The notes beneath the pieces were generated by a model that saw only the letters and a program-made list of their open reading frames with translations, was not told the origin of the DNA and ran no database searches. The translations under genes were made by a program, and so were the position numbers. From positions 62,001 to 126,000 of the forward strand of contig DATJAY010000005.1 of NCBI GenBank assembly GCA_035515795.1: a stretch of 64,000 bases of DNA, in the 5' to 3' direction. This document shows, one piece after another, positions 20,788-46,071 of the stretch. How positions within the stretch are numbered: the stretch's first letter is position 1; each line of letters begins with the position of its first letter. This DNA is from Candidatus Acidiferrales bacterium. GTDB lineage: Bacteria > Bacteroidota > Ignavibacteria > Kryptoniales > JAKASW01.

Positions 20788-22975
20788 GAGGGCTCTGACA
20801 GAGTATATCTTTGTTAGATCAATAACTAGGTTGCATCACGACGTGAAAAACATAATCTTGAAGATTGTTTCGACCATGCTTCTTGTCGCAGCTTGCATTA
20901 CCGTCCGTGCCGAAAACGGACACGGTCTCTGGCTGAGATATAAGCTTGTCTCAGATAAGCATCTGCGGGAAGAGTACACAAAGTTAGTCGATGGAATGAT
21001 CGTAGAAGGAGAATCGCCGACAATCCAGGCTGCTAAGAATGAACTTCAGAAAGGATTAAGCGGATTGTTGGGAAGGATGGTTCCTGAAATCAAAAGTGTA
21101 AATCATAACGGAGAAATATTAGTAGGGAGCTATAAAAGTTCGCCATTGATCGAACATGCCGGTGTGAAAAGTGATCTGTCGAAAACCGGACCGGAAGGTT
21201 TTGTCATCAAAAGTTTAGAGGTCGGCGGACGAAGAGTAACTGTCATCACCGCTAACGAAGATGTAGGCGTGCTTTACGGCGCTTTCCATTTCTTAAATTT
21301 ACTGCAGACGAACCAGGATATTTCCCACATCAACATTGTCTCCTTTCCGAGAATTAAACTGAGAATGTTAAATCACTGGGACAATCTTGATGGTACAAGA
21401 GTCTATCCTGGTTTTTCAATCTGGGATTGGCACACGCTTCCAACTTACATAAAGCAGATATATGTCGATTACGCCCGCGCCGACGCATCGATCGGCATCA
21501 ATGGTACCGTGTTGAACAACGTCAACGCTGATCCGCGAATTATTACTCATGATTATCTTGTTAAGATTGCCGCGCTCGCAGATGTGTTCCGTCCTTATGG
21601 AATAAAAGTTTTTCTCAGTGCCAATTTCGACTCGCCCGTGAAATTGGGAGAATTGAAATCTGCAGATCCATTCGATCCACAAGTAAGAGAATGGTGGAAA
21701 AACAAAGTCAAGGAAATTTATTCCTTCATTCCGGATTTCGGAGGCTTTCTCGTGAAGGCCAATTCGGAAGGTGAACCCGGACCCGGAGACTACAATAGAA
21801 CTCAGGCCGATGGTGCAAACGTGCTCGCGGAAGCGGTGAAACCTTATGGCGGAATCGTGATCTGGAGAGCTTTCGTCTATGCTTACAACCCCAAGGATCG
21901 TGCGCGCGAAGCCTACGATATATTCAAGCCGCTGGACGGAAAGTTCGACAGCAACGTCCTGCTACAGGTGAAGAACGGTCCGCTTGATTTTCAGCCGCGC
22001 GAACCGTTCAGCCCCTTGTTCGGCGCCATGCCAAAGACACCTCTGATGATGGAATTGGACATAGGTCAAGGTGCTTTGGGCGAAGATGTGGGTTTAGTTT
22101 ATCTTGCTCCGATGTGGAGAGAGTGTCTTATGTCGGATACTTACTGCAGAGGAAAAGGATCCACGGTCGCGAAAGTCGTCGACGGCTCAATCGATGGTTA
22201 CGAAACAACTGGCATTGCGGGAGTTTCAAATGTCAGCAACGAATGCAGCTGGACGGGGAACATTTTCGGACAGGCGAACTGGTACGCGTTCGGCCGCCTT
22301 GCCTGGGACTATGATCTTACTTCGAGTCAGATAGCCGACGAATGGATCAGGATGACCTTTTCGAACGACACGTCCGTAATAAATCCCGTTGAAGAAATAA
22401 TGATGACTTCGCGAGAGAATGTAGTGAACTATAGAGATCCGATCGGTCTCAACATGTTAGGCGGGTGGAGTGTTTATCATGGACCATGGGTTAACAATTC
22501 GGTACATGCCGATTGGAATTCTCCATATTACCACAGAGCCGACAGCATCGGCATCGGCTTCGATCGTACGAGAACCGGCAGCGATGCCGTGGACCAGTAT
22601 TATCCGCCGGTCGCCGACCAATTAAATTCCCTCGACACTTGCCCGGAAGAATATCTCCTCTGGTTTCATCATGTACCATGGAACTACAAGATGAGATCGG
22701 GTAATACCCTCTGGGATGAGCTTTCCTATCATTATTATAGAGGCGTCGAAGGCGTACAGGAAATTCAGAGCATATGGAATTCTTTAAAAGGGAAAGTAGA
22801 CAGCGAGGAGTTCAATTCGGTACGAATGCTGCTAAAGATACAGCATGACGATGCTGTCAGCTGGAGAGACGGTTGCGTTCTATATTTCCAGACTTTTTCT
22901 CATTTGCCCATTCCTGCCGGATTACCTGCACCTGAACACGATCTTGAATATTACGAGGAGCATAATCCGAGGTGA
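20774..22975 (+). CDS. GH67 alpha-glucuronidase
   Basis: Up to 733 residues. The ATG at 20774 overlaps the GH30 gene by 14 bases. The GTG at 20843 is an attractive alternative because it starts directly at the signal peptide ('VKNIILKIVSTMLLVAACITVRA'). GH67 hallmarks are 'NHWDNLDGT', 'KANSEGEPGPGDYNRTQADG' (likely acid Glu) and 'QVKNGPLDFQPREPF' with 'MMELDIGQ' (likely Asp/Glu base pair). GH67 enzymes remove 4-O-methylglucuronate only from the non-reducing end of xylo-oligosaccharides, complementing GH115, which also attacks internal branches. Probably periplasmic. Confidence 0.94.
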   Translation: MCRTERALTEYIFVRSITRLHHDVKNIILKIVSTMLLVAACITVRAENGHGLWLRYKLVSDKHLREEYTKLVDGMIVEGESPTIQAAKNELQKGLSGLLGRMVPEIKSVNHNGEILVGSYKSSPLIEHAGVKSDLSKTGPEGFVIKSLEVGGRRVTVITANEDVGVLYGAFHFLNLLQTNQDISHINIVSFPRIKLRMLNHWDNLDGTRVYPGFSIWDWHTLPTYIKQIYVDYARADASIGINGTVLNNVNADPRIITHDYLVKIAALADVFRPYGIKVFLSANFDSPVKLGELKSADPFDPQVREWWKNKVKEIYSFIPDFGGFLVKANSEGEPGPGDYNRTQADGANVLAEAVKPYGGIVIWRAFVYAYNPKDRAREAYDIFKPLDGKFDSNVLLQVKNGPLDFQPREPFSPLFGAMPKTPLMMELDIGQGALGEDVGLVYLAPMWRECLMSDTYCRGKGSTVAKVVDGSIDGYETTGIAGVSNVSNECSWTGNIFGQANWYAFGRLAWDYDLTSSQIADEWIRMTFSNDTSVINPVEEIMMTSRENVVNYRDPIGLNMLGGWSVYHGPWVNNSVHADWNSPYYHRADSIGIGFDRTRTGSDAVDQYYPPVADQLNSLDTCPEEYLLWFHHVPWNYKMRSGNTLWDELSYHYYRGVEGVQEIQSIWNSLKGKVDSEEFNSVRMLLKIQHDDAVSWRDGCVLYFQTFSHLPIPAGLPAPEHDLEYYEEHNPR

Positions 22976-24853: not shown

Positions 24854-27148
24854 ATGTCAAGAATATTTACAGTTGTGAGTTGCTTTTTGTTTTTTATCAA
24901 TTCAGGATTCGGGCAGTCAGCATCGTTCCAGACTTACATGAATCCTGTGATCCCCGGTGACCACCCCGATTGCACATTAACAAAGGTTGGCAATGACTTT
25001 TACACGACCGGGTCATCGTTCAATCCGACGCCGGTCATTTATCATTCCACCGATCTGGTTCATTGGGAAGCGATAGCCCAGCCTGTGAGCGCTGCCTGGT
25101 CAAACTACGGAGATGCGCCCGCCGGCGGATGCTGGGGCGGTCAGGTAGTTTATTATAACAATAAGTGGTGGGATTTCTTCTGTCGAAATTGGCAAATGTA
25201 TTTTGTCACTGCTGACAGCGTCAGAGGGCCATGGTCGATGCCGACGTTGGTGAATAATCCTTCGAGTGTCTCCGGCGGCTTGGGCTACGACAACTCTATC
25301 TTTGTCGACGACGACAGCACGTGGTATTTATTGGTGAAAAACGGTCAGGCAGGTAACTGGATAGTGCAGCTGGGGAATAACGGTCAGCCAAGCGGGAAGG
25401 TTTTGAATTTGACGTGGATAAATCCCGCACCTTCGTATCCATACAGTTGGGCGGAAGGACCGGTTATGTGGAAGCACGGCGGCTATTACTACTATGCTTT
25501 TGCTCAGAACGTCGCCGGTGGGGAATACGTCATGAGAAGCAAGACTCTGACGGATAGCTCATCTTCCTGGACGACGCCGGTTAATTTCTTCAACACGAGC
25601 GATCCGCAAGCTTCATCAGCAGTGTTCGGCAATCCTAATCATTGCTCAGCTGCGGTAGTGATTGATGACAGTACGGTCTGGATTCTCCATCCGGTGTGGC
25701 GCACCGGAAGCAGCAATGAATGGTACAGTCAGGGACGGCAGGGATTGCTCAATCAAGTTCGTTATGATTCCACCGGCGAACCGACTGCCGACTACCCGGT
25801 GAATGCTCCGAAGGATGCGCCCAAATTACCAAGCAGCGGTATTCCGTGGATGGTGCCGCATTCAGATTTTTTTGATTCGAACAAACTGAATCCCGAGTGG
25901 TCGTTCCTGGGATATACCGCTTCCAATGCATATTCTCTCACCGCTCGTCCGGGGTGGCTGACACTTTCTCCAAGAGGCGGAGAGTTCAATACAGTAATCA
26001 AGAATGACGGTGAACATAATTATTCAGTAACCACCAGATTGGAATTCAAACCGCAATCAGTCAGTGATGAAGCCGGCATCTGGATCGTAAACGGACCGGA
26101 AGCTATAAGCGCAAAATTGTTCAGCTCGATCGACAGTTCAGGAAACAAGATCGTGACGTTCAGTTATGAAATCACTCGTTACACAATTCCTGACCCTGCA
26201 GGTGTCGGTGATAGTACATTGTGGCTTAAGCTTGTCCGTGTCAACCATATGCTTACCGGTTATTGCAGCACTGATGGTTATGACTGGATCCGCGTGGGAA
26301 GCAGTATCAATGTAACCGATCTGGATGGGTATCAATCCAATTACAACAGCTCATGGACAGGAAACCGACAGGGGTTGTTTGTACAAGGAGGAGTCCCGGC
26401 CGGCTTTGATTTTTATATTTATCGCGACGCTTATACACCGATATTGGCCGAATGTCCCGCGAACCAGTACGGCACGACCGTTTCGGCAAGAGTCAACGGA
26501 ATGAGTTCGTTGACCAATATACATGATGGTGACTGGGCATTATATGCCGGCCTGGAGTTTGGGAACTCGGAATACGTAATTGAACCTGATTCTATTCATA
26601 TTACGGCTTCATGTGCTTCTTCGGGTGGTGTTGTCGAAGTCTGGCTTGATTCGATCGATACCGGTACCAAAATAGCTGAATGCAATATCACCAATACCGG
26701 CAGCTGGAGTAATTACGAAACATTCTCCACCAATGTTCTCACAACCGTTTCGGGCAACCGTGATGTCTACTTGAAATTCAAAGGTGCAGGCTCGGGTAAT
26801 CTTTTTATGCTCCAGTGGGTGAGTTTTGTTGATAAATCCCATCCTTTAACATCTATCCACGAATCACGATCAGGACTGCTTCCGAAACACTTTGAGCTTG
26901 AACAAAATTATCCCAACCCATTTAACCCGGCGACAAGGATCAGCTACCAGTTGCCGGTTGCAAGTAACGTCACTCTGAAGATTTATGATGTGTTGGGCCG
27001 AGAAGTTGCGACACTGGTGGATGAGAGACAGAGCGCGGGATACCATGGCGTCACATTCGACGCAGGAAATTTGGCGAGTGGTGTGTATTTCTATCGAATC
27101 GGGACAGAGATGTCTTCTGCAGTGAAGAAGCTTACGTTAGTGAAGTAA
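24854..27148 (+). CDS. GH43 beta-xylosidase/arabinofuranosidase with CBM6 and T9SS tail
   Basis: 764 residues with a clear signal peptide. The five-bladed GH43 triad is visible: base Asp39 (GDHPDCTL), pKa modulator Asp145 (GYDNSIF) and acid Glu200 (WAEGPVMW). A beta-sandwich GH43 C-terminal domain spans ~290-530. A CBM6-like module ('AECPANQYGTTVSARV' to 'GNLFMLQWVSF') covers ~535-665, and the T9SS sorting tail ends the protein. Such enzymes release xylose or arabinose from xylan; which one cannot be decided by eye. Secretion with a CBM implies direct action on polymeric substrate. Confidence 0.92.
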   Translation: MSRIFTVVSCFLFFINSGFGQSASFQTYMNPVIPGDHPDCTLTKVGNDFYTTGSSFNPTPVIYHSTDLVHWEAIAQPVSAAWSNYGDAPAGGCWGGQVVYYNNKWWDFFCRNWQMYFVTADSVRGPWSMPTLVNNPSSVSGGLGYDNSIFVDDDSTWYLLVKNGQAGNWIVQLGNNGQPSGKVLNLTWINPAPSYPYSWAEGPVMWKHGGYYYYAFAQNVAGGEYVMRSKTLTDSSSSWTTPVNFFNTSDPQASSAVFGNPNHCSAAVVIDDSTVWILHPVWRTGSSNEWYSQGRQGLLNQVRYDSTGEPTADYPVNAPKDAPKLPSSGIPWMVPHSDFFDSNKLNPEWSFLGYTASNAYSLTARPGWLTLSPRGGEFNTVIKNDGEHNYSVTTRLEFKPQSVSDEAGIWIVNGPEAISAKLFSSIDSSGNKIVTFSYEITRYTIPDPAGVGDSTLWLKLVRVNHMLTGYCSTDGYDWIRVGSSINVTDLDGYQSNYNSSWTGNRQGLFVQGGVPAGFDFYIYRDAYTPILAECPANQYGTTVSARVNGMSSLTNIHDGDWALYAGLEFGNSEYVIEPDSIHITASCASSGGVVEVWLDSIDTGTKIAECNITNTGSWSNYETFSTNVLTTVSGNRDVYLKFKGAGSGNLFMLQWVSFVDKSHPLTSIHESRSGLLPKHFELEQNYPNPFNPATRISYQLPVASNVTLKIYDVLGREVATLVDERQSAGYHGVTFDAGNLASGVYFYRIGTEMSSAVKKLTLVK

Positions 27149-27251: not shown

Positions 27252-29303
27252 ATGAAAAAGATTTCATTATATATAAAGAAAGATTTTAAGAGGTGGATTA
27301 TCCTGGTATTGCTGGCAGTATCTGCCTCGCAAGCGCACGCCCAAACAGGTTGGGGCAATATTCAAACAAACGTGCCGGAGCTTAAGAATGTTTATGCAAA
27401 GGATTTTTATATCGGTTGCATCTTATCATATCCGCACATTGGGTTCACCACTGATCCGCCCGTCCCGGGTCAATCGGCTGTAGTAGATACCAATGGCGGG
27501 TACTTAGTGAAATTTCATATGAACTCCATGTCGCCCGGCAACAATATGAAACCGATGTATACCGTCAATATTAGTGCGAGTGCTGCGGCTTATTCTGCCG
27601 CAACTACTCAGGCGCAGAAGGATTCGATCAACACCCACCCGATAATAACTTTCAATGGCAACCTGATTGCTCAACTCAATTGGGCACAAAGGCAGGGCTT
27701 TACGTTTCGAGGACATACGCTGGTTTGGCATAACCAGACTCCGACACAGTTCTTCCGGACAGGTTATACGACTACGGGCGGTTACGTGTCAAAGGATACG
27801 ATGATCCAGCGTATGGGGTGGTACATACACGAGGTGATTCGATCAATTCACCAGAGTTGGCCGGGCTTATTATCCGCAATCGACGTGGTGAACGAAGCGA
27901 TCGCTGACGGCACAGGAGCAGTCCGCACCACCGGCAACGAATGGTACACCGTGTTTGGTGATTCAACTTATGTCATGACTGCCTTCCAACTGGCCCGCCA
28001 ATATACTCAGCAATACGGCGAGACGCAGATCAAGCTGTATTATAATGATTACAATACCGAGGTCCCAACGAAGGCTGACGGCATCGTGAGACTACTGACT
28101 CCGATTTATCAGGCAGGTTATCTCGATGGTATCGGAATGCAAAATCACAATAGCCTTTCAACTCCGACCGCGCAAACTTTCATAGACTCGTACAATAAAT
28201 TCTATCCGATATGCAACGAGATGGCCGTAACAGAATTGGATGTAACGACCGGCACCAGTACCCCTTCTGCTTCGCAACTGGCCGCACAGGCGAACCAATA
28301 CGGCATGCTTTTCAAATGTTTTGTTGAGCGCAGTTATAGATCCGGCAGGGGAAAGATTGTCAATGTTACGAAAGATGGTTTGAATGATAAGTATACATTC
28401 GTGACTACGGGGGCCACCTCATTATGGGATTCCAACGACCAGTGCAAGCCGGCGTTCTTCGCGGTCGCAGATGTTGGTACCAACTATAACGCTTTAGACT
28501 CGCTCATCTCGTATGCTGATTCTTTGCACGAAAGCAAATATACCGCATCATCATGGTCGCAATTTGCTGCAGCATTGGACTCGTCGAAGAGCGCCATGGC
28601 ACAGGAATATTCAGTATCTGTATCGGCGGATACCGCTTTAAGCAATGCAAGAGTCGGTCTTCAGACTGCCATTGCAGGATTGGTACTGAACATCGTGAAG
28701 ATGCCTGTCATCAATATTTCATCGCACTCCATCGATTTTGGAGCGGTCCCTTACGGTTCTACCAAGAAAGATACCGTTCAAATTTACAATACTGGTACAG
28801 ACACACTGAAGGTAACCTCGATCACCTCGACTGACACGACATTCACTTTTGCGCCGGCCGCTTTCAACATCGCACCATCGGACAGCCTTAATTTTGTAGT
28901 AACATTCGCGCCGAGAGAAATTGCGAACTATACTGGATTCATCATTCTCACCCACGATGCTGCCGGATCGCCGGATTCGATTCCGGTCAGCGGTCAAGGC
29001 ATTGAAATATATGCGGTTCATAATGGAGGGGGGTTGCCGACTGAGTTTGCATTAAGTCAGAACTATCCCAATCCATTTAATCCGTCGACAACGATCAATT
29101 ATCAATTGCCTGTACATAGTCGAGTAACGTTGAAGGTCTATGATGTTCTCGGAAGAGAAGTCGCAACGTTGGTGAATGAAAGGAAAGACGCGGGCTATTA
29201 TAATGTTTCGTTGGATGCGGGCGATTTGCCGAGCGGTGTGTATTTTTACAGGATTGAGACCGAGAAATTTACCGATGTCAAGAAATTTATCCTGATAAAA
29301 TGA
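27252..29303 (+). CDS. GH10 endo-xylanase with FIVAR-like and ASH/HYDIN-like insert domains and T9SS tail
   Basis: 683 residues. AAAGGTG precedes the ATG, and a signal peptide ends at 'SQAHAQ'. The catalytic domain occupies ~35-415, with acid/base Glu215 (DVVNEAI) and nucleophile Glu328 (AVTELDV). Residues ~418-490 form an alpha-helical FIVAR-like segment ('ALDSLISYADSL', 'WSQFAAALDSSKSAM'). Residues ~495-590 resemble an ASH/HYDIN immunoglobulin domain ('IDFGAVPYGSTKKDTVQIYN'). The T9SS tail follows. It differs clearly from the other GH10 at 16448, suggesting division of labour on substituted versus bare xylan. Confidence 0.92.
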   Translation: MKKISLYIKKDFKRWIILVLLAVSASQAHAQTGWGNIQTNVPELKNVYAKDFYIGCILSYPHIGFTTDPPVPGQSAVVDTNGGYLVKFHMNSMSPGNNMKPMYTVNISASAAAYSAATTQAQKDSINTHPIITFNGNLIAQLNWAQRQGFTFRGHTLVWHNQTPTQFFRTGYTTTGGYVSKDTMIQRMGWYIHEVIRSIHQSWPGLLSAIDVVNEAIADGTGAVRTTGNEWYTVFGDSTYVMTAFQLARQYTQQYGETQIKLYYNDYNTEVPTKADGIVRLLTPIYQAGYLDGIGMQNHNSLSTPTAQTFIDSYNKFYPICNEMAVTELDVTTGTSTPSASQLAAQANQYGMLFKCFVERSYRSGRGKIVNVTKDGLNDKYTFVTTGATSLWDSNDQCKPAFFAVADVGTNYNALDSLISYADSLHESKYTASSWSQFAAALDSSKSAMAQEYSVSVSADTALSNARVGLQTAIAGLVLNIVKMPVINISSHSIDFGAVPYGSTKKDTVQIYNTGTDTLKVTSITSTDTTFTFAPAAFNIAPSDSLNFVVTFAPREIANYTGFIILTHDAAGSPDSIPVSGQGIEIYAVHNGGGLPTEFALSQNYPNPFNPSTTINYQLPVHSRVTLKVYDVLGREVATLVNERKDAGYYNVSLDAGDLPSGVYFYRIETEKFTDVKKFILIK

Positions 29304-32959: not shown

Positions 32960-33823
32960 GTGGTTGAGAATAAATCGACGGCAATCTTATTACTCTCGTG
33001 CAAAGATCGGACGGGATTGATCTCCAGGATTTCTCACTTCGTGTTCGAACGCGGTGGAAATATTCTCGACCTGGATGAGCATGTAGACGTAGATGACAAA
33101 CAGTTCTTTATCAGGATAGCATGGGATATGAAAAATTTTACAGTCCCGGAGTCCGAAGTGGCGGATGCGTTTACGCCTCTGGCGAAAGAATTCGGCGCGA
33201 CATATAAGATCAATTTCACCGGCAAGAATCTGAGAGTAGCGGTCTTCGTATCGAAGCTTGAACATTGCCTTCAGGAGATTTTATGGCGCCAGAGGCTCGG
33301 TGAGTTTAATATTGAAATCCCGCTGATCGTATCGAATCATGAAGATCTTCGGCACCTCGCCGAGCAGTACAGCATCCCGTTTTTCGTTTTTCCCGTGACA
33401 AAAGAAAATAAACCTGAGCAGGAAAGGAAAGAATTGGCATTGCTGGAGGAACAGCGGATCAATACAATTGTGCTGGCGCGCTACATGCAGGTTTTGTCTC
33501 CGCAGATTGTCTGCAAATTTCAGAATGAGATCATCAACATTCATCATTCATTCCTTCCTGCGTTTGCAGGGAGCGATCCATACAGGCAGGCCTATGAGCG
33601 GGGCGTAAAAATAATCGGCGCGACGAGCCACTATGTTACTGAAGAACTCGACGAGGGCCCGATCATCGAGCAGGACATCATCCGGATATCTCATAAAGAC
33701 ACAGTGAGCGATCTCGTGCGCAAAGGAAGAGATCTCGAGCGCCTGATACTCGCTCGCGCTATGTATTTCCACGCCCAGCACCGCATACTGGTTCATGGCA
33801 AACGAACTATTGTCTTCGAATAA
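32960..33823 (+). CDS. purU: Formyltetrahydrofolate deformylase
   Basis: 287 residues from a GTG eight bases after AGGAGG. Residues ~1-85 are an ACT domain ('TAILLLSCKDRTGLISRIS'). Residues ~88-287 are the formyltransferase-fold hydrolase with 'LARYMQVLSPQIV', 'INIHHSFLPAF' (catalytic His region) and 'EELDEGPIIEQD' (catalytic Asp). PurU hydrolyses 10-formyl-THF to formate and THF. In several demethylating bacteria it serves as the exit for oxidised methyl groups, so its place directly before a methyltransferase gene (14 bases) is suggestive. A plain role in balancing formyl-THF remains possible. Confidence 0.95.
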   Translation: MVENKSTAILLLSCKDRTGLISRISHFVFERGGNILDLDEHVDVDDKQFFIRIAWDMKNFTVPESEVADAFTPLAKEFGATYKINFTGKNLRVAVFVSKLEHCLQEILWRQRLGEFNIEIPLIVSNHEDLRHLAEQYSIPFFVFPVTKENKPEQERKELALLEEQRINTIVLARYMQVLSPQIVCKFQNEIINIHHSFLPAFAGSDPYRQAYERGVKIIGATSHYVTEELDEGPIIEQDIIRISHKDTVSDLVRKGRDLERLILARAMYFHAQHRILVHGKRTIVFE

Positions 33824-33837
33824 GGAGAGAGCATAAA

Positions 33838-34875
33838 ATGACTGATCAGCAATGGGATACACTTCTTAGAATAGTCAAGGGGGAGAGAGTCAGGCCGCTT
33901 CCGGCCGGTTTCATCATTGACAGTCCGTGGCTTCCAAACTGGTACGGAGTGAAGATATTGGATTATTTTTCAAACGACGAGGTTTGGCTGAATGCGAACC
34001 TGAAAGCCATGAATGATTTTCCCGACGTTATGTTCCTGCCCGGATTTTGGTCGGAATTTGGAATGTGCACTGAGCCGTCTGCATTTGGCGTGCGTTGCAC
34101 CTTCCCGCCGAACGAATTCCCGTTTGCGCACAAGGTCATTCAGTCGTCGGATGATATCGATTCGCTGCCTCAGCCGAATCCGAAGACGGATGGGCTTTTG
34201 CCTTTTGTCTTGAATAGGTTGAAGCTTGCCCAGCCAAAAATCGAGGCGGCCGGTCATAAGATTCGGTTTGCCGTCGCTCGCGGTCCATTGAACATCGCCA
34301 GCTATTTGATGGGCTCGACGGAATTCTTGACGACCATGATGATGGAACCGGAGAAGGCAGAATTGCTTATGAAGAAGATCACTATCTATTTGAAAGATTG
34401 GCTTCATCTCCAAATGGAGACCTTCCCTTCAATCGATGGCATCCTCATGCTCGATGATATCATCGGATTCATGGGGGCAGATCAATTTGAAGCTTTCGGC
34501 ATGTCGTATTTCAAAGAGTTGTACAATCAAAATGTTTCCGTGAAGTTCCTTCACAACGACGCACCGAGCAGGGAATCGGCGAAATTCCTTCCGGAAATTG
34601 GAGTGAACTTATTCAACATGGGATTCGATGTCACTCTGAACGAGTTAAAGCAGTTAACCCAGAACAAGGTGGCGTTGCTTGGAAATATTCCTCCACGCGA
34701 TGTTCTTGCGAGCGGAACACCGGAACAGGTGACAGAGACGATCGTTGACTTGATGAATTCGCTCAAAGACAATTCAAGGGTGATATTATCTTGCGGAGGA
34801 GGAATGCCTCCAGCGGTCAGCACGGAAAATATAGAAGCGTTTGTCCGGGCAGTTAAAGACAATTCGCTCGTCTGA
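33838..34875 (+). CDS. UroD-fold corrinoid methyltransferase (MtaA/CmuA-like), H-N-D variant
   Basis: 345 residues, 14 bases after purU with an AAGGAGAG site, so almost certainly the same transcript. The UroD fold is recognised, but the N-terminal substrate motif of heme-pathway HemE (P-x-W-x-M-R-Q-A-G-R) is absent. Methyltransferases of this superfamily bind zinc through H-x-C...C. Here the first part reads His239-Asn-Asp241 and the distal Cys319 is kept (ILSCGGGMPP). The altered ligand suggests a substrate different from that of the paralogue at 41415. I propose it moves a methyl group from a methoxylated sugar or aromatic to the corrinoid protein at 40742. Substrate is unproven. Confidence 0.8.
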   Translation: MTDQQWDTLLRIVKGERVRPLPAGFIIDSPWLPNWYGVKILDYFSNDEVWLNANLKAMNDFPDVMFLPGFWSEFGMCTEPSAFGVRCTFPPNEFPFAHKVIQSSDDIDSLPQPNPKTDGLLPFVLNRLKLAQPKIEAAGHKIRFAVARGPLNIASYLMGSTEFLTTMMMEPEKAELLMKKITIYLKDWLHLQMETFPSIDGILMLDDIIGFMGADQFEAFGMSYFKELYNQNVSVKFLHNDAPSRESAKFLPEIGVNLFNMGFDVTLNELKQLTQNKVALLGNIPPRDVLASGTPEQVTETIVDLMNSLKDNSRVILSCGGGMPPAVSTENIEAFVRAVKDNSLV

Positions 34876-36563: not shown

Positions 36564-37751
36564 CTATTGTAACCCAAGCGAGCGTCTGATTCCAAGTTCC
36601 AGTCCGCGCAGTTCGGAAAGTCCCCGCATCCGGCCGAACAGTGAGTATCCTGGGTAGATCCCTTTCCTGTTCATGTCGGGAATCATGAGATGGCCGTGGT
36701 CGGGCCGCATCGGCAGACTCTTCAATCCTTTCTCCGCGCGCCGCTCCTGTTCGAGTACGAGCGGTTTCATCACGCGGTACATATCCACGTCGCCGTCGAG
36801 GTGATTGTCTTCGATAAAGCCTCCCGTCCCGTCCCGCTTCACATTCCGAAGGTGGATAAAATTTATACGAGATGCGAACGCTTCGGCCATTTCCACGATG
36901 TTGTTTCCCGTAGAAGCCGCTAGCGAACCCGGGCAATAAGTAATTCCGTTCGACTGCGAATCCGAGACGCTTAGTATCTGCTCGAAATCTTGCTTGCTGC
37001 TGACTACTCTCGGCAGGCCGAAGAACTGAAATGGCGGATCATCGGGGTGAATGCCCAAGAGCACATCCGATTCTTCGGCGGAGGCGATTATTTCCTTGAT
37101 GAAAAAATACAAATTTTCCCGGAGTTCGCCCGCGTCGATCTTTTCATATTTTGCCAACTCCGACCTGAATCCATCCAGCGTGTAAGCATCAAGGGAACCC
37201 GGAAAGCCGAGAAGAATTGTCCGGTGCAGAGTATCCCGTTGCTCGCTTGTCATGGCGCGAAAATATTTTTCGGCTTCTTTTATTTCCTGGTTGCGATAAT
37301 CTTTTTCGGAATCTTTTCTTTTCAACATGAAGATATCGAACGCGGCAAGAACCCGTCTCTCAAATTTCGTGGTTATCGATCCGTCTTTGAAAACGACCCG
37401 CAGATCTGTGCGCAGCCAATCGAGCACCGGCATGAAATTGTAGCACACGACGCCGATTCCGCATTGACCGAGATTTCTTATCGTCTCTTTGTAATTGTCG
37501 ATATACTTGCGATAATTACCTATTCGTTTCTTGATATCCTCATGTACCGGGATACTTTCGGTGACGGACCACCTTAGTCCCGCCTTCTCGATCAGATTTT
37601 TTCGCTCGAGGATTTTTTCGATACTCCATGTTTCTCCAGTCGGGATTTGATGGAGCGAAGTAACGATGCCGGTCGCGCCGGTTTGCCTTACTTCCTCAAG
37701 CGAGATCGGATCGTTCGGACCGAACCATCTCCACGTTTGTTCGAATGGCAT
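36564..37751 (-). CDS. uxuA: D-mannonate dehydratase
   Basis: 395 residues, matching the usual ~394. Family landmarks are 'EQTWRWFGPNDP', 'ATGIVTSLHQIPTGE', 'GIGVVCYNFMPVLDW', 'GIHPDDPP', 'GITYCPGSLAA' and 'LPMRPDHGHLM'; several of these His, Asp and Cys positions bind the divalent metal. It converts D-mannonate to 2-keto-3-deoxy-gluconate in glucuronate catabolism (EC 4.2.1.8). Together with the GH67/GH115 enzymes this marks glucuronate as a real carbon source. It sits 47 bases after the LacI regulator gene on the same strand. Glucuronate isomerase, KDG kinase and KDPG aldolase are not in the window. Confidence 0.97.
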   Translation of the reverse strand: MPFEQTWRWFGPNDPISLEEVRQTGATGIVTSLHQIPTGETWSIEKILERKNLIEKAGLRWSVTESIPVHEDIKKRIGNYRKYIDNYKETIRNLGQCGIGVVCYNFMPVLDWLRTDLRVVFKDGSITTKFERRVLAAFDIFMLKRKDSEKDYRNQEIKEAEKYFRAMTSEQRDTLHRTILLGFPGSLDAYTLDGFRSELAKYEKIDAGELRENLYFFIKEIIASAEESDVLLGIHPDDPPFQFFGLPRVVSSKQDFEQILSVSDSQSNGITYCPGSLAASTGNNIVEMAEAFASRINFIHLRNVKRDGTGGFIEDNHLDGDVDMYRVMKPLVLEQERRAEKGLKSLPMRPDHGHLMIPDMNRKGIYPGYSLFGRMRGLSELRGLELGIRRSLGLQ

Positions 37752-37798: not shown

Positions 37799-38833
37799 TC
37801 AGTCGTTCAATACCCTCGTTGATTCTCTGATGACAAATTCCGTCTCGAAGACAACTTTTTCGACAGGGAGCAATTTCGGAGATTCGATATTTCGAATAAG
37901 TATTTCGGCTGCCCTTCGTCCTATCTCATGTTGAGGCGCCCTTATCGTCGTCAATGGTACCGGATAGATTTTCGCATAGTAGATATCGTCGTTACCGACG
38001 ATCGATATATCGCCCGGCACCGAGATATTCAACTGTTTCAGCGCCATCATGACGGCGAGCGCCTGATGGTCGTTAAAGCAGACAATCGCCGTAGGATATT
38101 GGTCTTTCGTTTTCTTCTTAAAATATTCTACCGTCTTCGGGAACACTTCATCGTAATGAGAACCGATGGGTACGATCATATCCCTGTTGAACACCGAGGT
38201 ACTCTCGCTGAAAGCGTCGCGGAATCCTTCAATGCGCTCCTGTGTGTGAGACGACTGATGGGGGCCGGCAAAGTGCACGATTTTTTTATGGCCGCTTTCT
38301 ATCAGATACTTCACAGCTTTCTTGATGGCCCTCAAGTTGTCAATCGCCACGACATTTGCCTGAATCCCTTTGACTTCTTCCAGCAGAACGAACGGATAAT
38401 TTATCATTTTCAATTTGAAGAGATGTTCAATCTCCGCCGTCCCCTCGACAACCGGAGCTATTATAGTCCCTTTGATGTCCTTCGTCGAGAAAAGATGGGA
38501 CAGCTTCTTCTCGTTCTCATGATTATCATCCGAGCTTGTCACGATCACGGAGTATCCCTTGGTACTTGCGTAGTCCTTCACGCCGGTTGCTATGGAAGTA
38601 TAAAAAGGATAGTTTAAGTCTTTTATGATTATCGCGATGGATTTGTCCTGAGTTCCGTTCTTCAGATTTCTTGCGACTCCCCTTGGCCGGAAGTTCAGTT
38701 CTTTCATTACTTCGAGTATGTGGTCCCTCGTTCCGGGTCTCACAGAGTTTTTCGCATTGATGACGGCGGAGACTGTTCCTTTCGAGACCCCTGCTCTCTT
38801 CGCAACATCGTCTATCGTTATTCTTTTCAGCAA
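37799..38833 (-). CDS. LacI-family transcriptional regulator of the uronate/methyltransferase region
   Basis: 344 residues with an N-terminal LacI helix-turn-helix ('ITIDDVAKRAGVSKGTVSAVIN', residues ~4-25), hinge region, and a periplasmic-binding-protein-like effector domain ('SIVGNDDIYYAKIYPVPLTTI'). It precedes uxuA on the minus strand and faces the T9SS gene at 39075 across a 240-base promoter region. It is therefore likely to respond to a uronate-derived sugar and control both directions. The effector is not deducible from sequence. Confidence 0.94.
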   Translation of the reverse strand: MLKRITIDDVAKRAGVSKGTVSAVINAKNSVRPGTRDHILEVMKELNFRPRGVARNLKNGTQDKSIAIIIKDLNYPFYTSIATGVKDYASTKGYSVIVTSSDDNHENEKKLSHLFSTKDIKGTIIAPVVEGTAEIEHLFKLKMINYPFVLLEEVKGIQANVVAIDNLRAIKKAVKYLIESGHKKIVHFAGPHQSSHTQERIEGFRDAFSESTSVFNRDMIVPIGSHYDEVFPKTVEYFKKKTKDQYPTAIVCFNDHQALAVMMALKQLNISVPGDISIVGNDDIYYAKIYPVPLTTIRAPQHEIGRRAAEILIRNIESPKLLPVEKVVFETEFVIRESTRVLND

Positions 38834-40741: not shown

Positions 40742-41410
40742 ATGCACGAAATACTGGAACAATTGACAACCTGCATCGAGCTTGGAAAAATCAATAAGGC
40801 TTCACCATACCCGCCTGCTTTGAAAGGACAAGATGGAGCCGATGAGCTTTGCAAGATGGCACTGGATCAGGGGATAGCCCCGGACGATGTTTTGAACAAG
40901 GCGTTGATACCGGGAATGTCGAGAATCGGTCAAAAATTTTCACAAGGTAAGGCGTTCGTTCCGGAGATGTTGATCGCCGCGAAGGCGATGACGGCGGCAA
41001 TGAAACACCTGAAGCCATTTTTTACGTCGGGCGAAATAAAGAGGAAAGGCACATTCGTTGTCGGAACCGTCATGGGTGACCTCCACGATATAGGTAAAAA
41101 TATTTTGTCGATGACTATTGAAGGCGCAGGATGGGAAGTGGTAGATTTGGGCGTCGATGTGAAGGCAGAGAAATTCTTAGAGGCAATTGACAAACACCCG
41201 GATTGCGTTGTCGGTTTGTCTGCACTGCTTACAACTACGATGGCAAATATGGAGTCGATCGTGAAGACAATCAGAGACAAATACCCCAACAAGGTAATCC
41301 TCGTAGGCGGGGCGCCGTTATCGATGGACTTCTGCAAAAAGATCGGAGCGAATTTTTATTCTCCTGACCCTCATGGAGCTGTCGAGTTTCTGAACAAACT
41401 TGCAGCATGA
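40742..41410 (+). CDS. Corrinoid (B12-binding) methyltransferase protein, MtaC/MtbC-like
   Basis: 222 residues. An N-terminal helical cap (~1-98, 'ALIPGMSRIGQKFSQGKAFVPEMLIAAKAM') precedes a Rossmann-like B12 domain. The cobalt-ligating motif is G-D-L-H-D-I-G (His115), followed by 'VVGLSALLTTTM' and 'VILVGGAPLS'. Such proteins shuttle a methyl group on a bound corrinoid between a substrate methyltransferase and an acceptor methyltransferase. It starts a tight operon with a UroD-fold methyltransferase, a reactivation protein and a homocysteine methyltransferase. Confidence 0.95.
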   Translation: MHEILEQLTTCIELGKINKASPYPPALKGQDGADELCKMALDQGIAPDDVLNKALIPGMSRIGQKFSQGKAFVPEMLIAAKAMTAAMKHLKPFFTSGEIKRKGTFVVGTVMGDLHDIGKNILSMTIEGAGWEVVDLGVDVKAEKFLEAIDKHPDCVVGLSALLTTTMANMESIVKTIRDKYPNKVILVGGAPLSMDFCKKIGANFYSPDPHGAVEFLNKLAA

Positions 41411-41414
41411 GCAT

Positions 41415-42419
41415 ATGAACGTATCCGAGTGGATAGTCTCCTTAGGTAATTCTCCGAACAGACTTGCGGTCCCGATCATGACGCATCCGGGTATTGAATC
41501 TACAGGCAAGACCATTGTCGAAGCGGTCAGTGACGGCGAGACACAATTCCGGGCAATCAAAGCAGTTCAGGAAAAATATTCGCCTGATGCTGCAACGATG
41601 ATCATGGATCTGACGGTTGAAGCTGAGGCTTTTGGCAGCAGGATAAATTTGTCCGACAAAGAAATACCTTCACTCACCGACAGACTTGTGGGTGATCAGG
41701 AATCTGTGGAAAGGTTGAGGGTTCCTTCACTTGAATCCGCACGCGTTCCACAGTATCTCAGGGCTGCTCAGCTTGCGGTTAAGGAAATAAAAGATAAGCC
41801 GGTGTTTGCGGGATGCATCGGACCTTTCTCGCTTGCCGGAAGATTGTTCGGCATGTCCGAAATTATGACCTCGCTTTTCATCGAGCCTGATGTAATTAAA
41901 CTTCTCCTGGACAAGTGTTCTTCATTTTTGCGTTCGTACATCGGAGCGATGAAAAATCTCGGCACTGATGGAATTCTAATGGCTGAGCCGGCTGCAGGAC
42001 TTTTATCGGCGGAAATGTGCGATGAGTTTTCCTCGGATTACATAAAAGGAATCGTAGATGATGTTCAGGACGGGGATTTTCTTTTTATACTCCACAACTG
42101 CGGGAACACGGGTCACGTAACGCAATCCATGATATACACGGGCTCCGGCGGGCTGCATTTTGGAAACAGGGTCAGTATGGTCGAGGTACTGAATGAAGTA
42201 CCCAAAAACAGACTTGTGTTCGGCAATCTCGATCCTGTTAGCGTTTTCAAGTCAGGCTCGCCAAAACATGTTTTCGATGAGACGACTAAACTCTTGCGCC
42301 AGACTACCGATCATAGAAATTTCATAATATCTTCCGGCTGTGATACCCCGCCCGGCTCTCCTCCGGAAAATGTGGAAGCTTTCTTTCACGCCGTCAGAAT
42401 ATTCAATGCTGGAGACTGA
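41415..42419 (+). CDS. UroD-fold corrinoid methyltransferase (MtaA/MtbA-like), H-x-C...C zinc type
   Basis: 334 residues from the ATG at 41415, four bases after the corrinoid gene; an upstream in-frame TTG at 41400 is inside that gene and less likely. The zinc-site pattern of methylcobamide methyltransferases is intact: His227-Asn-Cys229 (ILHNCGNTGH) and Cys309 (ISSGCDTPPGS). HemE's N-terminal arginine motif is absent, so it is not uroporphyrinogen decarboxylase. It probably exchanges methyl groups between the corrinoid protein and a thiol or another partner. Which direction it works in cannot be decided here. Confidence 0.88.
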   Translation: MNVSEWIVSLGNSPNRLAVPIMTHPGIESTGKTIVEAVSDGETQFRAIKAVQEKYSPDAATMIMDLTVEAEAFGSRINLSDKEIPSLTDRLVGDQESVERLRVPSLESARVPQYLRAAQLAVKEIKDKPVFAGCIGPFSLAGRLFGMSEIMTSLFIEPDVIKLLLDKCSSFLRSYIGAMKNLGTDGILMAEPAAGLLSAEMCDEFSSDYIKGIVDDVQDGDFLFILHNCGNTGHVTQSMIYTGSGGLHFGNRVSMVEVLNEVPKNRLVFGNLDPVSVFKSGSPKHVFDETTKLLRQTTDHRNFIISSGCDTPPGSPPENVEAFFHAVRIFNAGD

Positions 42420-43150
42420 TGCTGTTGGCAAAGACTTTTGCGAGTGCCGAGACTTTTTCTTTTGATCATGACGAGATAAGGATTTCGCGAAATGCCTTTG
42501 CATGTGCATTGGGCTACGATCCGGATTCAATGCCCGCTCCGCTAATCGAATCGATCGATGATATTCTCGAAAATGGTAACACATTATGTAACATTGAAGG
42601 TGGATACAAAATAATCGGCCCGGTTCAGTTTGATCGTGTTAGCCATTCCCTTATGCTAAGTTCTTATAGCTTCAATGTAAAGAAAGTGGTTTTCCAGCAG
42701 TTGAAGAAAGCCGAGAACATCGCCCTTTTTGCATGCACTGCGGGAAACGAAATAATCGAAAAGTCGAGAGATTTGATGAAGGGGGGAGAGCTCCTGAAAG
42801 GTTATGTCTACGACGTGTTCGGGTCCTTGGTAGTTGAAGAGGCGATGGATCACATACAGAACGCGCTTAGAAACAAAATGCTGGAAGAAAAGCTGAAGAT
42901 TACAAATCGCTACAGCCCGGGATATTGCGGATGGGATGTGTCGGAGCAGAAAAAGCTGTTCAGTATGCTGCCTAAAAAATTCTGCGGTATTGAGCTAACC
43001 GATTCATGTCTCATGCGGCCGATCAAGTCGGTCAGCGGAATCATCGGCATCGGGAAATCCGTCAAGTTCAATGAGTACACGTGCAATTTGTGCGATGAAG
43101 CAGACTGTCTTTATAGAAATCTGAGACACAAGACAGCGTTATCAAGTTAA
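42419..43150 (+). CDS. Stand-alone MetH-type reactivation (AdoMet-binding) domain protein
   Basis: 243 residues. Its ATG overlaps the previous stop in TGATG, indicating translational coupling. The C-terminal half carries the MetH activation-domain features 'RYSPGYCGWD' (164-173) and 'LTDSCLMRPIKSVSG' (193-207), which bind S-adenosylmethionine. A Cys cluster, C-x-x-C-x4-C (Cys222, Cys225, Cys230), follows. Such proteins reductively methylate corrinoid that has become inactive cob(II)alamin. Its place in the operon indicates it services the protein at 40742. Confidence 0.88.
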   Translation: MLLAKTFASAETFSFDHDEIRISRNAFACALGYDPDSMPAPLIESIDDILENGNTLCNIEGGYKIIGPVQFDRVSHSLMLSSYSFNVKKVVFQQLKKAENIALFACTAGNEIIEKSRDLMKGGELLKGYVYDVFGSLVVEEAMDHIQNALRNKMLEEKLKITNRYSPGYCGWDVSEQKKLFSMLPKKFCGIELTDSCLMRPIKSVSGIIGIGKSVKFNEYTCNLCDEADCLYRNLRHKTALSS

Positions 43151-43161
43151 AGGACTGAAAA

Positions 43162-44043
43162 ATGAAGAGAATCAAAGAGAGAGTTCTATTCGGCGAGATT
43201 CTACTGTCGGATGGTGCATGGGGTACCATGCTACACTCGAAAGGTTTAAAAATAGGAGATTGTCCTGAAAGATGGAATCTCGAAAGACGCGCCGACGTGC
43301 TGGACGTGGCAAAAAGTTACGTCGATGCGGGTTCAGACATGATTGAGACGAATAGCTTCGGCGGAAGCAAATTCAAGTTGGACTATTACGGATTGGGAGA
43401 TAGAGTCGTTGATGTAAACAGAATTGCCGCCGAGATATCCAGGGAAGCCGCCGGAGACATAGTTTATGTCCTCGGATCCGTCGGGCCGACGGGAAAGATG
43501 CTGCTGACAGGCGATGTGACCAAGGAAGAGTTATATGAATGCTTTGGGGAGCAGGCAAAGGCACTCGAGGCTGGCGGGGCGGATGCTATTGTTGTAGAAA
43601 CGATGTTCGATTTAGATGAAGCGAAGTGTGCGATAAAGGCGGCGAAGGAAAACACAAAGTGCGAAGTCATTTGTACCATGACGTTCGATTCCAGCGGAAC
43701 GGGATTCCACACCATGATGGGGACAACTCCCGAAGTCGCTGCACGATCATTGATGGAAGCCGGCGCAGACATCATCGGATCAAACTGCGGCAACGGTGTT
43801 GAGAATATGGTTAGCATTGTGAGACAAATGCGCTCCGTCGATGGGAAGATCCCAATCTTAGTCCAGGCAAACGCCGGCCTGCCGATGGTAGTTGAAGGTA
43901 AAACAATATTTCCCGAAACGCCTGAAGCGATGGCAAGGTGGATCAATCCATTGATAGACGGAGGCGCCAACATAATCGGTGGATGCTGTGGAACTACCCC
44001 GGAGCACATCAGGAAAATTGCCGAAGTCGTCAGAGCAAGTTGA
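43162..44043 (+). CDS. Homocysteine S-methyltransferase (MetH N-terminal-domain type)
   Basis: 293 residues, 11 bases after the reactivation gene. The zinc ligands of the family are present: Cys209 in 'IIGSNCGNG' and the Cys275-Cys276 pair in 'GGCCGTTPEH'. The opening 'LSDGAWGTML' and 'MIETNSFGGSKFKL' also match. It transfers a methyl group from methylcobamide or another donor to homocysteine, yielding methionine. With the free corrinoid protein and reactivase it forms a split methionine-synthase-like set that lacks a pterin (methyl-THF) binding domain. Confidence 0.93.
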   Translation: MKRIKERVLFGEILLSDGAWGTMLHSKGLKIGDCPERWNLERRADVLDVAKSYVDAGSDMIETNSFGGSKFKLDYYGLGDRVVDVNRIAAEISREAAGDIVYVLGSVGPTGKMLLTGDVTKEELYECFGEQAKALEAGGADAIVVETMFDLDEAKCAIKAAKENTKCEVICTMTFDSSGTGFHTMMGTTPEVAARSLMEAGADIIGSNCGNGVENMVSIVRQMRSVDGKIPILVQANAGLPMVVEGKTIFPETPEAMARWINPLIDGGANIIGGCCGTTPEHIRKIAEVVRAS

Positions 44044-44076
44044 AAATAATATCAATATTATGAAAGGGTATGCTTG

Positions 44077-45486
44077 ATGAGCTCGACTCAATTCTTTCCT
44101 TCTGAAGAAATGATCTTGAAAGAACGGCTGAAGAACTGCAGAGAGTTATGCGATGACCCGCAGCTGATCGGAGATCCGGGTTTCAAAAATCCAATAGCCG
44201 AATCGCGTATCGGTCGATATGTAACAGGTAAAAGAATTTGTGCGACCGGAGATATCGATATCATTAAGGCTTATTTAGATGTGAATCGGAACCTGCCGAG
44301 TTTTCCTGCAGCGGGCCCGCGGGAGCACCTGTTCTTTGACCCCGCCGAAGTGAGAGTTGGAATCGTGACTGCCGGCGGAATCGCACCGGGACTTAACACC
44401 GTGATTCATTCGATTGTGAATATGCACTCGACCGTTTACGGAACGCGGGAGAAGGCGGTCGGTTTCCTCGGCGGATTCCGCGGTATTGAACAGCAGCATA
44501 CCGTTGAGTTGGAGCCGATGAAGACAATCGAATGGCTTCAAAAAGGGGGAACGGGGATCTACACGGGCCGCGACAAAGCAGATGTGAAAGCAATCGTGAC
44601 GAGTATCGTGCAATTGGATATCAATATCCTTTATGTAATCGGCGGAGATGGATCGTTGAGCATGGCCCATGCAATCGCGAAAGAAATCGAGGCGAGGAGG
44701 CTTAAGATTGTGGTGGCAGGGATCCCTAAGACGATGGACAATGACGTGATGTGGATTTCCCACTCATTCGGATTCGATACGGCGGTCGAAGAGGCGGCTC
44801 GCATCGTAAACGCGATCCATGATGAGGCAAAGTCTACGAGAAGAATTTGTCTCCTGCCGCTTTTCGGAAGGGAAGCAGGCTTCGTCGCAGCCCATGCAGC
44901 GCTCGCATGCGGGCATGTCGACGCAATCCTTGTTCCCGAAGTGGAATTCAAACTCGAGCCGCTTCTCGAATATGTGGATAAACTTGTCAAGCGGAAGGGG
45001 CACGCGCTTATTGTTTTGGCAGAGGGTGCGTGCCCGTGGGGTTATGCCGAGAAGGACATTGAGAGAGAACTAAGAGGACGTGGACTCGATCCGGCGGATA
45101 GAACTAACCCGCATGTCAGCGATGCGCTGCGTTCGTGGCGCCTGAACGTGATCCTCGACAGATTCAGGGAATACTTCGGAAAGTTGTGGGGAGATGAACA
45201 TCAGGTTTTTGTAGAAGAACCGCGATACCTTATCCGCGCGATTCCTGCGAACTCGGTCGACCAGATTTACTGCCAGCGGCTTGCTGACCTTGCCGTCCAC
45301 AATGCGCTTGCCGGTTATACCGATTTCATGATAAGCCAGTGGCTCGATGAGTATGTGTTGGTTCCGTTGAAGCTGGTCGCAGAAGAGAAGGGTCCGGACG
45401 GGAGGCGGCTCACAAAAAAAATTCATCCGGGGAGTGTCTTCTGGGCAACAGTCATAAACAGCACAGACCAGCCGTCGTTCGCGTGA
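44077..45486 (+). CDS. 6-phosphofructokinase family protein
   Basis: About 469 residues from the ATG at 44077 (a TTG directly before it is in frame). The PFK fold is clear from 'VGIVTAGGIAPGLNTVI', 'GGTGIYTGRDK', 'VIGGDGSLSMA', 'GIPKTMDNDV' and 'LFGREAGFVA'. Gly in GGDGS is the residue usual in ATP-dependent enzymes, while Lys in PKTMDND is usual in pyrophosphate enzymes. The combination occurs in long ATP-dependent members. The phosphoryl donor is therefore unsettled. It follows the methyl-transfer operon by 33 bases and could process sugars from the degradation locus. Confidence 0.9.
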   Translation: MSSTQFFPSEEMILKERLKNCRELCDDPQLIGDPGFKNPIAESRIGRYVTGKRICATGDIDIIKAYLDVNRNLPSFPAAGPREHLFFDPAEVRVGIVTAGGIAPGLNTVIHSIVNMHSTVYGTREKAVGFLGGFRGIEQQHTVELEPMKTIEWLQKGGTGIYTGRDKADVKAIVTSIVQLDINILYVIGGDGSLSMAHAIAKEIEARRLKIVVAGIPKTMDNDVMWISHSFGFDTAVEEAARIVNAIHDEAKSTRRICLLPLFGREAGFVAAHAALACGHVDAILVPEVEFKLEPLLEYVDKLVKRKGHALIVLAEGACPWGYAEKDIERELRGRGLDPADRTNPHVSDALRSWRLNVILDRFREYFGKLWGDEHQVFVEEPRYLIRAIPANSVDQIYCQRLADLAVHNALAGYTDFMISQWLDEYVLVPLKLVAEEKGPDGRRLTKKIHPGSVFWATVINSTDQPSFA

Positions 45487-45522
45487 CAGCACTCTTCACG
45501 TTTGAAGATAAGAGAGCCCTGC

Positions 45523-46071
45523 ATGTTCAATGACGCAAGAAGCAAGAAAATAGTCGTTACCGCTCACTGTTTGTTGAATCAGAATTCAATATCAGATGGC
45601 ACCGCAGACATGCCGAGCCAGTTCGACACCATCGTAAACCTGCTCATCACTAACAAAGTCGGAATAATTCAATTGCCATGTCCAGAATTCCTATGTTTGG
45701 GATTGGCACGAAGAGATGAAGGTGGCGCAAATAGAGAGCTGCTGGCCGAAAATACCAGGATAAGAGCTTTAATGCGCGAAGAAAGGAATAAAGAGATATT
45801 AATAAAAAAGGCACAAGAAATAGCAGAACAATTACGGGACTACCAAAAGTATCATTTCAAAATTCTTGGTCTGATCGGAATAAATAGATCTCCTAGCTGT
45901 GGAGTAGATACGACTACCTTGGATGGGCGAGAGATGGAGGGACACGGAGTTTTCATGGAAATACTCGAAGGGGAATTATCGCGGAAGAAAATCCGATTGA
46001 ACATGGTAGGGGTAAAAACGAATCGGGAAGAAGAGTCCATAGAAAAAGTGAGAAATCTGCTTGAAGAATGA
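45523..46071 (+). CDS. TudS/DUF523-related cysteine protein
   Basis: 182 residues from the ATG at 45523; the in-frame TTG at 45502 is less likely. It resembles the TudS/DUF523 desulfidase superfamily, with 'TAHCLLNQNS' (Cys16), 'QLPCPEFLCLGL' (Cys53, Cys58) and 'NRSPSCGV' (Cys116). In TudS three Cys hold a [4Fe-4S] cluster, and the pattern here could do so. It is the last gene of the plus-strand run that begins with the corrinoid protein. An iron-sulfur role in corrinoid reduction is possible but is my inference. No substrate is known to me for this subgroup. Confidence 0.7.
   Translation: MFNDARSKKIVVTAHCLLNQNSISDGTADMPSQFDTIVNLLITNKVGIIQLPCPEFLCLGLARRDEGGANRELLAENTRIRALMREERNKEILIKKAQEIAEQLRDYQKYHFKILGLIGINRSPSCGVDTTTLDGREMEGHGVFMEILEGELSRKKIRLNMVGVKTNREEESIEKVRNLLEE

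Follow-up and report, generated by a model that had tools for sequence, protein, structure and literature searches.

A four-gene corrinoid methyltransferase operon beside xylan genes as a candidate chassis for sugar O-demethylation with methyl transfer to homocysteine

The subject of this analysis is a 64,000-nucleotide stretch of the genome of Candidatus Acidiferrales bacterium (Bacteroidota; Ignavibacteria; Kryptoniales; assembly GCA_035515795.1, contig DATJAY010000005.1, positions 62,001 to 126,000), referred to below as the window and numbered from its first letter. Four adjacent genes at 40742–44043 encode a corrinoid protein, a methyltransferase of the uroporphyrinogen decarboxylase (UroD) fold termed UroD1, a corrinoid reactivator and a homocysteine methyltransferase. 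On balance, we favour the reading that they provide the common machinery of a corrinoid-dependent O-demethylase acting on a methylated plant sugar, with the methyl group passed to homocysteine, rather than a stand-alone methionine synthase. The methylated sugar would most likely be 4-O-methyl-glucuronic acid, and the proposed donor-specific enzyme (MT1) is a second UroD-fold methyltransferase of the window, UroD2. This reading is based on gene content, motifs, folds and conserved neighbourhoods, compared across approximately 150 related loci and 391 genomes of the class. The handles L, G, C and f below denote loci, genomes, contigs and families of this comparison set.

The first gene of the core (40742–41410, + strand) encodes a 222-amino acid (aa) corrinoid (B12-binding) carrier protein of the MtgC/MtbC-like type, with PF02607 and PF02310 domains and the DxHxxG motif present as GDLHDIGKN; its top NCBIfam model was MtgC_2 (182 bits, under the cut-off). 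It is followed on the same strand by UroD1 (41415–42419; 334 aa from the ATG at 41415; URO-D 5e-57), by Act, a short MetH-type, S-adenosylmethionine (AdoMet)-dependent corrinoid reactivation protein (42419–43150; 243 aa), and by Hcy, a homocysteine S-methyltransferase (43162–44043; 293 aa; PF02574, S-methyl_trans, 1.5e-71) in which the three zinc-ligand cysteines are present (NCG...GGCC). The match of Act to Met_synt_B12 (PF02965, 1.7e-10) was short and divergent, covering profile positions 119–253 of 273, and the protein carries an RYSPGY motif, which we interpret as the motif by which MetH binds AdoMet. A sequence-only reading of this DNA had described the corrinoid, reactivation and homocysteine modules of MetH as separate, tightly coupled adjacent proteins lacking a pterin domain. 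The modules were confirmed by Pfam and NCBIfam models together with the motifs, the spacing was reproduced in full (a 4-base gap, a TGATG overlap and an 11-base gap), and a domain search with PF00809 gave no match in the operon. Corrinoid, UroD1 and reactivation genes were found together repeatedly across Bacteroidota, and corrinoid–Hcy–reactivator neighbours were repeated in several families of the class, so the four-gene set is not a chance arrangement. A standalone Hcy gene was present in 35 of the 41 genomes with UroD1 or its relative UroD1b as against 88 of 391 overall, shared ancestry being uncorrected in this comparison. The MetH-type reactivation domain was present in all 17 related genomes checked, and 16 of these had exactly two PF02965 genes, one MetH-type and one short, suggesting that the short reactivator is dedicated to the corrinoid system.

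The sequence-only reading had placed the UroD-fold protein of the operon in the position of the pterin (donor) module. This assignment was not supported: the invariant histidine and cysteines of UroD1 and its best sequence and fold match, MtaA, point to the acceptor side, and the donor candidate is instead UroD2 (33838–34875, + strand; URO-D 4.1e-35), which lies outside the four genes. In UroD2 an invariant H239-N-D241 stands in place of H-x-C, and its AlphaFold model (predicted local distance difference test score, pLDDT, 89) had its highest template modelling (TM) score with MtaA (0.81–0.83). A search with UroD2 only recovered seven strong orthologs outside the window, 59–76 % identical (59–81 % for the orthologs overall). 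Five of the seven lie in a compact operon with corrinoid and homocysteine methyltransferase genes (within L139–L143), and four of those five operons also carry the short reactivator gene. Compact B12–Hcy–Act–UroD2 operons (L139, L140, L142, L143, L128, L154–L156, L159, L168–L170, L173 and L175) were spread over families f1, f4, f10 and f22 of the class, the UroD2 loci of the last three families having been found by fetching loci of other genomes of the class that encode a close homocysteine methyltransferase.

The usual order of such a locus was GH115, GH43 (both glycoside hydrolase, GH, families), corrinoid protein, Hcy, Act and UroD2, optionally followed by an esterase, UroD1b and a TIGR00893-type transporter, with the mannonate dehydratase UxuA and D-mannonate oxidoreductase facing the operon. 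GH43 was present in 18 of 20 UroD2 loci compared with 3 of the 80 UroD1 comparison loci, and GH115 (Pfam 6.8e-157) in 12 of 20 compared with 2 of 80. UxuA (7 of 20) and D-mannonate oxidoreductase (5 of 20; NCBIfam score above the cut-off) were found in none of the 80 UroD1 loci. UxuA adjoins the UroD2 orthologs in L138–L141, L154, L156 and L175, and a neighbouring transporter belongs to the TIGR00893 sugar-acid group, with a score below the cut-off.

The predicted genes of the window mark it as a xylan locus. It encodes, on the + strand, a GH67 alpha-glucuronidase able to liberate (4-O-methyl)glucuronate from oligosaccharides of xylan (20774–22975; PF07488 1.3e-137), a GH43 beta-xylosidase-type enzyme with CBM6 (24854–27148; PF04616 1.6e-37) and a GH10 xylanase (27252–29303; PF00331 2.6e-56), and on the – strand the UxuA mannonate dehydratase of glucuronate catabolism (36564–37751; PF03786 2.5e-121; TIGR00695 495.8 bits, above the cut-off). 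These are the ingredients of the UroD2 ortholog loci with GH67 replacing GH115; among the UroD2 loci outside the window, none had GH67 beside UroD2, and GH115 was found there instead. A LacI-type regulator (37799–38833, – strand; PF00356/PF13377) has close relatives adjoining the UroD2 operons of L128, L153 and L159 (phmmer 536–586 bits). The formyltetrahydrofolate deformylase PurU (32960–33823, + strand; TIGR00655 388.9 bits, above the cut-off) is encoded 14 bases upstream of UroD2 and may serve as an outlet through which surplus one-carbon units are disposed of as formate. Another PurU gene was observed near the UroD1 locus L061. Downstream of the core on the same strand, at 44074–46071, are a phosphofructokinase-family gene and a gene for a CD3072-type, TudS-related putative desulfidase (gaps of 30 and 15 bases), with no evident tie to demethylation.

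In the proposed mechanism, the GH10, GH43 and GH67 enzymes would cleave glucuronoxylan to free 4-O-methyl-D-glucuronate, and UroD2 would transfer the O-methyl group of this sugar to cob(I)alamin on the corrinoid protein (40742–41410). The demethylated glucuronate would proceed through mannonate to UxuA. The PF02574 protein (43162–44043) would then move the methyl group of methylcob(III)alamin to homocysteine, yielding methionine; UroD1, as an MtaA-type zinc enzyme, would most likely be a parallel or alternative thiol-acceptor methyltransferase; and inactive cob(II)alamin would be rescued by the short MetH-type protein (42419–43150), using AdoMet and an electron donor. In this scheme the substrate, the direction in which the methyl group moves and the acceptor and role of UroD1 are predictions. 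The targets of GH67 and GH115 are the glucuronate branches of xylan, which often carry a 4-O-methyl group. In the isomerase route, C4 of glucuronate becomes C3 of mannonate, whose hydroxyl is eliminated by UxuA; a methyl ether at this position should block UxuA, so the 4-O-methyl group must leave before the UxuA step. A demethylase encoded beside a glucuronidase and UxuA would fit the need of a 4-O-methylglucuronate user.

The H-x-C...C site of UroD1 noted in the sequence-only reading was intact (H227, C229 and C309), and none of these residues varied among 38 relatives, the UroD1b proteins of the UroD2 loci among them. A sequence-profile comparison with the PDB gave MtaA, a methylcobamide:thiol methyltransferase, as the best match of UroD1 (4ay7, 1.5e-45). 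MtaA was also the best fold match of the UroD1 AlphaFold model (pLDDT 95, TM 0.88), and the UroD1 scores were below the MtaA/CmuA family cut-offs (TIGR01463 139.3 against 235.4 bits; NF040654 113.7 against 400 bits). Motif and fold thus make UroD1 look like an acceptor-side, thiol-type methyltransferase by prediction. UroD1 and UroD2 were rejected as HemE paralogs (TIGR01464 77.7 and 62.0 bits against a cut-off of 302.95), and the top-scoring URO-D gene in the genome, on contig C12, is presumably hemE. UroD1 and UroD1b never occurred in the same genome among the 391 sampled, the pattern expected of equivalents. Several gut genomes, including P. vulgatus ATCC 8482, encode UroD1 and no PF02574 protein except MetH. 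Conversely, UroD2–B12–Hcy(–Act) operons occurred in genomes lacking both UroD1 and UroD1b (G180, G211, G285 and G372), and UroD1 as a universal acceptor enzyme was dropped for this reason. On the simplest reading, Hcy and UroD1 both act as acceptor enzymes, and each complete system that could be checked has one or both of them. Homocysteine is probably, but not certainly, the acceptor for UroD1 too.

Related cores were found well beyond the UroD2 loci. Among the 80 Bacteroidota loci, the corrinoid protein, UroD1 and short reactivator recur, and many loci carry a variable further UroD-superfamily protein (MT1X, UroD2, UroD9, UroD12 or UroD16). The neighbours include sugar transporters, GH31 and GH141 in about a third of the loci and L-fucose isomerase in five. 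MT1X was not recognized by PF01208; its profile matched that of UroD2 with an hhalign probability of 94.7 %, making the two remote relatives. Both have H-x-D, and UroD9 and UroD16 have H-x-C...H. In 18 mostly Prevotella-like loci, a single fusion protein of approximately 930–1050 aa joins MT1X to homocysteine methyltransferase and B12 domains (for example L066:11881–14775; the others are L038, L039, L045, L047, L053–L056, L058, L060, L064, L069, L073, L079, L082, L086 and L090). By its domain content this fusion resembles a methionine synthase whose pterin domain has been replaced. Many of the fusions have GH31, GH141 and sodium:solute symporter genes as neighbours, and four also fucose isomerase; this setting suggests that the compound demethylated is methylated xylose or fucose, such as that of rhamnogalacturonan II. 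L133 likewise combines Hcy, reactivator and MT1X genes with those for GH31, GH141 and a sugar symporter. This locus and the 18 fusion loci are independent links between the homocysteine module and sugar loci. It is an even call whether these systems form one corrinoid sugar O-demethylase family, widespread in Ignavibacteria-type and gut Bacteroidota, with a common corrinoid protein, exchangeable UroD-fold enzymes on the donor side (UroD2 for the 4-O-methylglucuronate of xylan, MT1X for methylated sugars in GH31–GH141 loci) and direct methyl transfer to homocysteine, in some gut Bacteroidales by a single methyltransferase–homocysteine–B12 fusion.

Several further variants were observed. In L147 (8722–17295), genes for a UroD2-like protein, a corrinoid protein and a homocysteine methyltransferase stand beside genes for a methylenetetrahydrofolate reductase (MTHFR)-like protein and a methyl-tetrahydrofolate (methyl-THF):corrinoid methyltransferase, with an AcsV/RamA-like activator nearby; the methyl group can therefore alternatively go to folate in this lineage. 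L146 has UroD2-like and corrinoid genes in an apparently similar folate-linked version, the homocysteine methyltransferase being noted for L147 only. Genome G207 has 20 URO-D family genes and G172 has six clustered beside a corrinoid protein and reactivator (contig C33:159911–170252, L131), suggesting that one corrinoid protein serves many donor enzymes in these genomes. In the rumen Bacteroidales loci L036, L044, L048, L050, L051, L059 and L062, a UroD2-like gene (approximately 33 % identical) is divergent from or beside B12–Act–UroD1, and in most of them a GH10 gene lies two genes away.

The presence of other routes to methionine in the window genome (G000; assembly of 4.08 Mb, 100 % complete) bears on the idea that the operon is the methionine synthase of this cell. 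A complete MetH was found on contig C4 (116254–119877, L136) as two adjacent open reading frames (ORFs), one of 637 aa with homocysteine and pterin domains and one of 612 aa ending in the reactivation domain. The four-gene operon is therefore an accessory addition to ordinary methionine synthesis. A similar second MetH ORF of 597 aa was observed in the same-genus genome G007. In P. vulgatus, B. fragilis and other Bacteroides (G391, G392, G393, G397 and G398), the MetH ORF is only approximately 916–938 aa and its reactivation domain is a separate protein of approximately 300 aa elsewhere in the genome. The window genome gave no PF01717 match, and hence has no MetE or core-MetE/Mes synthase; a 645-aa ORF on C35 has a homocysteine methyltransferase domain and is YitJ-like by length. 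UroD1 was present in 25 of the 391 genomes and in 2 of 13 sampled within the genus (the window genome and G007). With this accessory distribution and a complete MetH, the operon was rejected as the main methionine synthase of the cell.

A split MetH using methyl-THF, with the pterin protein supplied in trans, would explain the MetH-like corrinoid, Hcy and reactivation modules, and the folate-linked L147 lineage shows that folate can be a partner elsewhere. We consider this explanation very improbable. The only pterin-binding (PF00809) proteins of the genome are a dihydropteroate synthase-like protein on C20 and the dedicated two-gene MetH on C4, leaving no separate partner for the corrinoid protein; a pterin-type acceptor methyltransferase was found only in the L147-type lineage. 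The restriction of UroD1 to two genomes of the genus is unlike a core methionine enzyme, and it is the xylan genes that are the conserved neighbours. The operon was thus rejected as a split MetH, and the suggestion of the sequence-only reading that methyl groups come from a source other than methyl-THF is very likely to be right, given the missing free pterin methyltransferase and the relatives that sit with donor-type UroD enzymes and sugar genes. It is also doubtful that UroD1 itself is the donor methyltransferase for some methyl compound, with Hcy as sole acceptor and UroD2 unrelated, even though UroD1 is inside the operon and UroD2 outside, L014, L015 and L019 have only UroD1 and B12 genes side by side, and the MtaA/CmuA family includes CmuA on the donor side and MtsA-type members working on both sides (PMC8630106). 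UroD1 accompanies many different UroD-fold partners, its MtaA-like zinc set is invariant while the partners vary, it is the only evident acceptor enzyme in the gut genomes without PF02574 beyond MetH, and B12–Hcy–Act–UroD2 operons occur in G285, G372 and G211, which lack UroD1 and UroD1b. These ligands and varying partners make UroD1 less likely as the donor enzyme. Finally, the same machinery could act on methoxylated aromatics (ferulate and relatives from arabinoxylan or lignin), as in MtvB, OdmB and VdmB, which are UroD-superfamily O-demethylases from acetogens; known UroD-fold MT1 enzymes do act on methoxyaromatics (PMC13222342). We regard this donor as decidedly unlikely, since uronate is the donor indicated by the UxuA, D-mannonate oxidoreductase, GH115 or GH67 and sugar-acid-type transporter genes of these loci, the sister systems have GH31, GH141 and fucose isomerase, and no aromatic catabolic gene was recognized among the neighbours examined.

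Several points weigh against a sugar O-demethylase. The PF00756 esterases within several UroD2 operons favour an aromatic donor and leave ferulate open. UroD2 lies 6 kb from the four genes of the window, with three opposite-strand genes between; the UroD2 and corrinoid genes share one locus but occupy separate operons here, and form one operon in many ortholog loci. The neighbourhood counts given above come from loci that share descent, so Fisher tests overstate their independence and p-values are merely indicative, and about half of the UroD2 loci were found through Hcy. Donor and acceptors alike, that of UroD1 included, are predicted from neighbourhood and fold, and UroD1 beside Hcy would be redundant on this model. 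Removal of a methyl group is chemically harder from an alkyl ether than from an aryl ether, and we know of no corrinoid sugar demethylase. Homocysteine alone would also be unable to take up all of the methyl groups of a bulk carbon source.

Methyl ethers occur on xylan (as 4-O-methylglucuronate), on rhamnogalacturonan II and on many algal and bacterial glycans. If the proposed sugar O-demethylase is correct, oxygen-independent methyl transfer would explain how xylan degraders pass the methyl block on mannonate dehydratase and would link glycan breakdown to methionine and AdoMet supply. It would also account for genes in polysaccharide loci of gut Bacteroides and Prevotella that are unnamed beyond ‘uroporphyrinogen decarboxylase family’ or ‘methionine synthase activation’. 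A search of open-licence papers found nothing on corrinoid sugar demethylation or 4-O-methylglucuronate demethylation, and likewise no account of direct methyl transfer from a xylan sugar to homocysteine via B12.

Parts of the proposed system resemble characterized ones. For methoxyaromatics and haloalkanes, systems with a separate corrinoid protein and UroD-superfamily donor enzymes have been described (PMC8630106, PMC13222342). The three-component O-demethylases of acetogens and methanogens (MtvABC, OdmB, VdmB and MtoB) and CdmBCA likewise combine a UroD-superfamily donor enzyme, a small corrinoid protein and separate acceptor and reactivator proteins (PMC13222342, PMC8630106). In those O-demethylases, however, the acceptor enzyme uses THF or tetrahydromethanopterin and the reactivator is usually of the ATP-dependent RamA/RACo type, whereas here they are a homocysteine methyltransferase and a MetH-type protein, and the context here is xylan and uronate rather than aromatics or haloalkanes. 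UroD1 shares its fold (TM 0.88) and H-x-C...C pattern with the methylcobamide:coenzyme M methyltransferases MtaA and MtbA, but its 113.7 bits fall short of the equivalog cut-off of 400 and these bacteria are not expected to use coenzyme M as an acceptor. The operon has the corrinoid, homocysteine and reactivation modules of MetH in common with that enzyme, but as separate chains and without the pterin module. MtgBCDE of marine bacteria is likewise a demethylation system whose corrinoid protein also serves methionine synthesis, although its donor enzyme is of the pfam06253 type, acting on glycine betaine, and its pterin protein MtgD is essential (PMC12478193). The core methionine synthases MesA–D and core-MetE also make methionine independently of folate, core-MetE from methylcobalamin, but are MetE relatives (PF01717-like; PMC7857596, PMC7005905), of which the window genome has none. 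The only described enzymatic removal of sugar O-methyl groups found in the open-licence literature is the P450 demethylation of 6-O-methyl-galactose in porphyran-degrading marine bacteria, which likewise clears a polysaccharide sugar of its methyl group before catabolism (PMC10033563). That route is O2-dependent and releases formaldehyde (PMC10033563), whereas the system proposed here would transfer the methyl group without oxygen chemistry.

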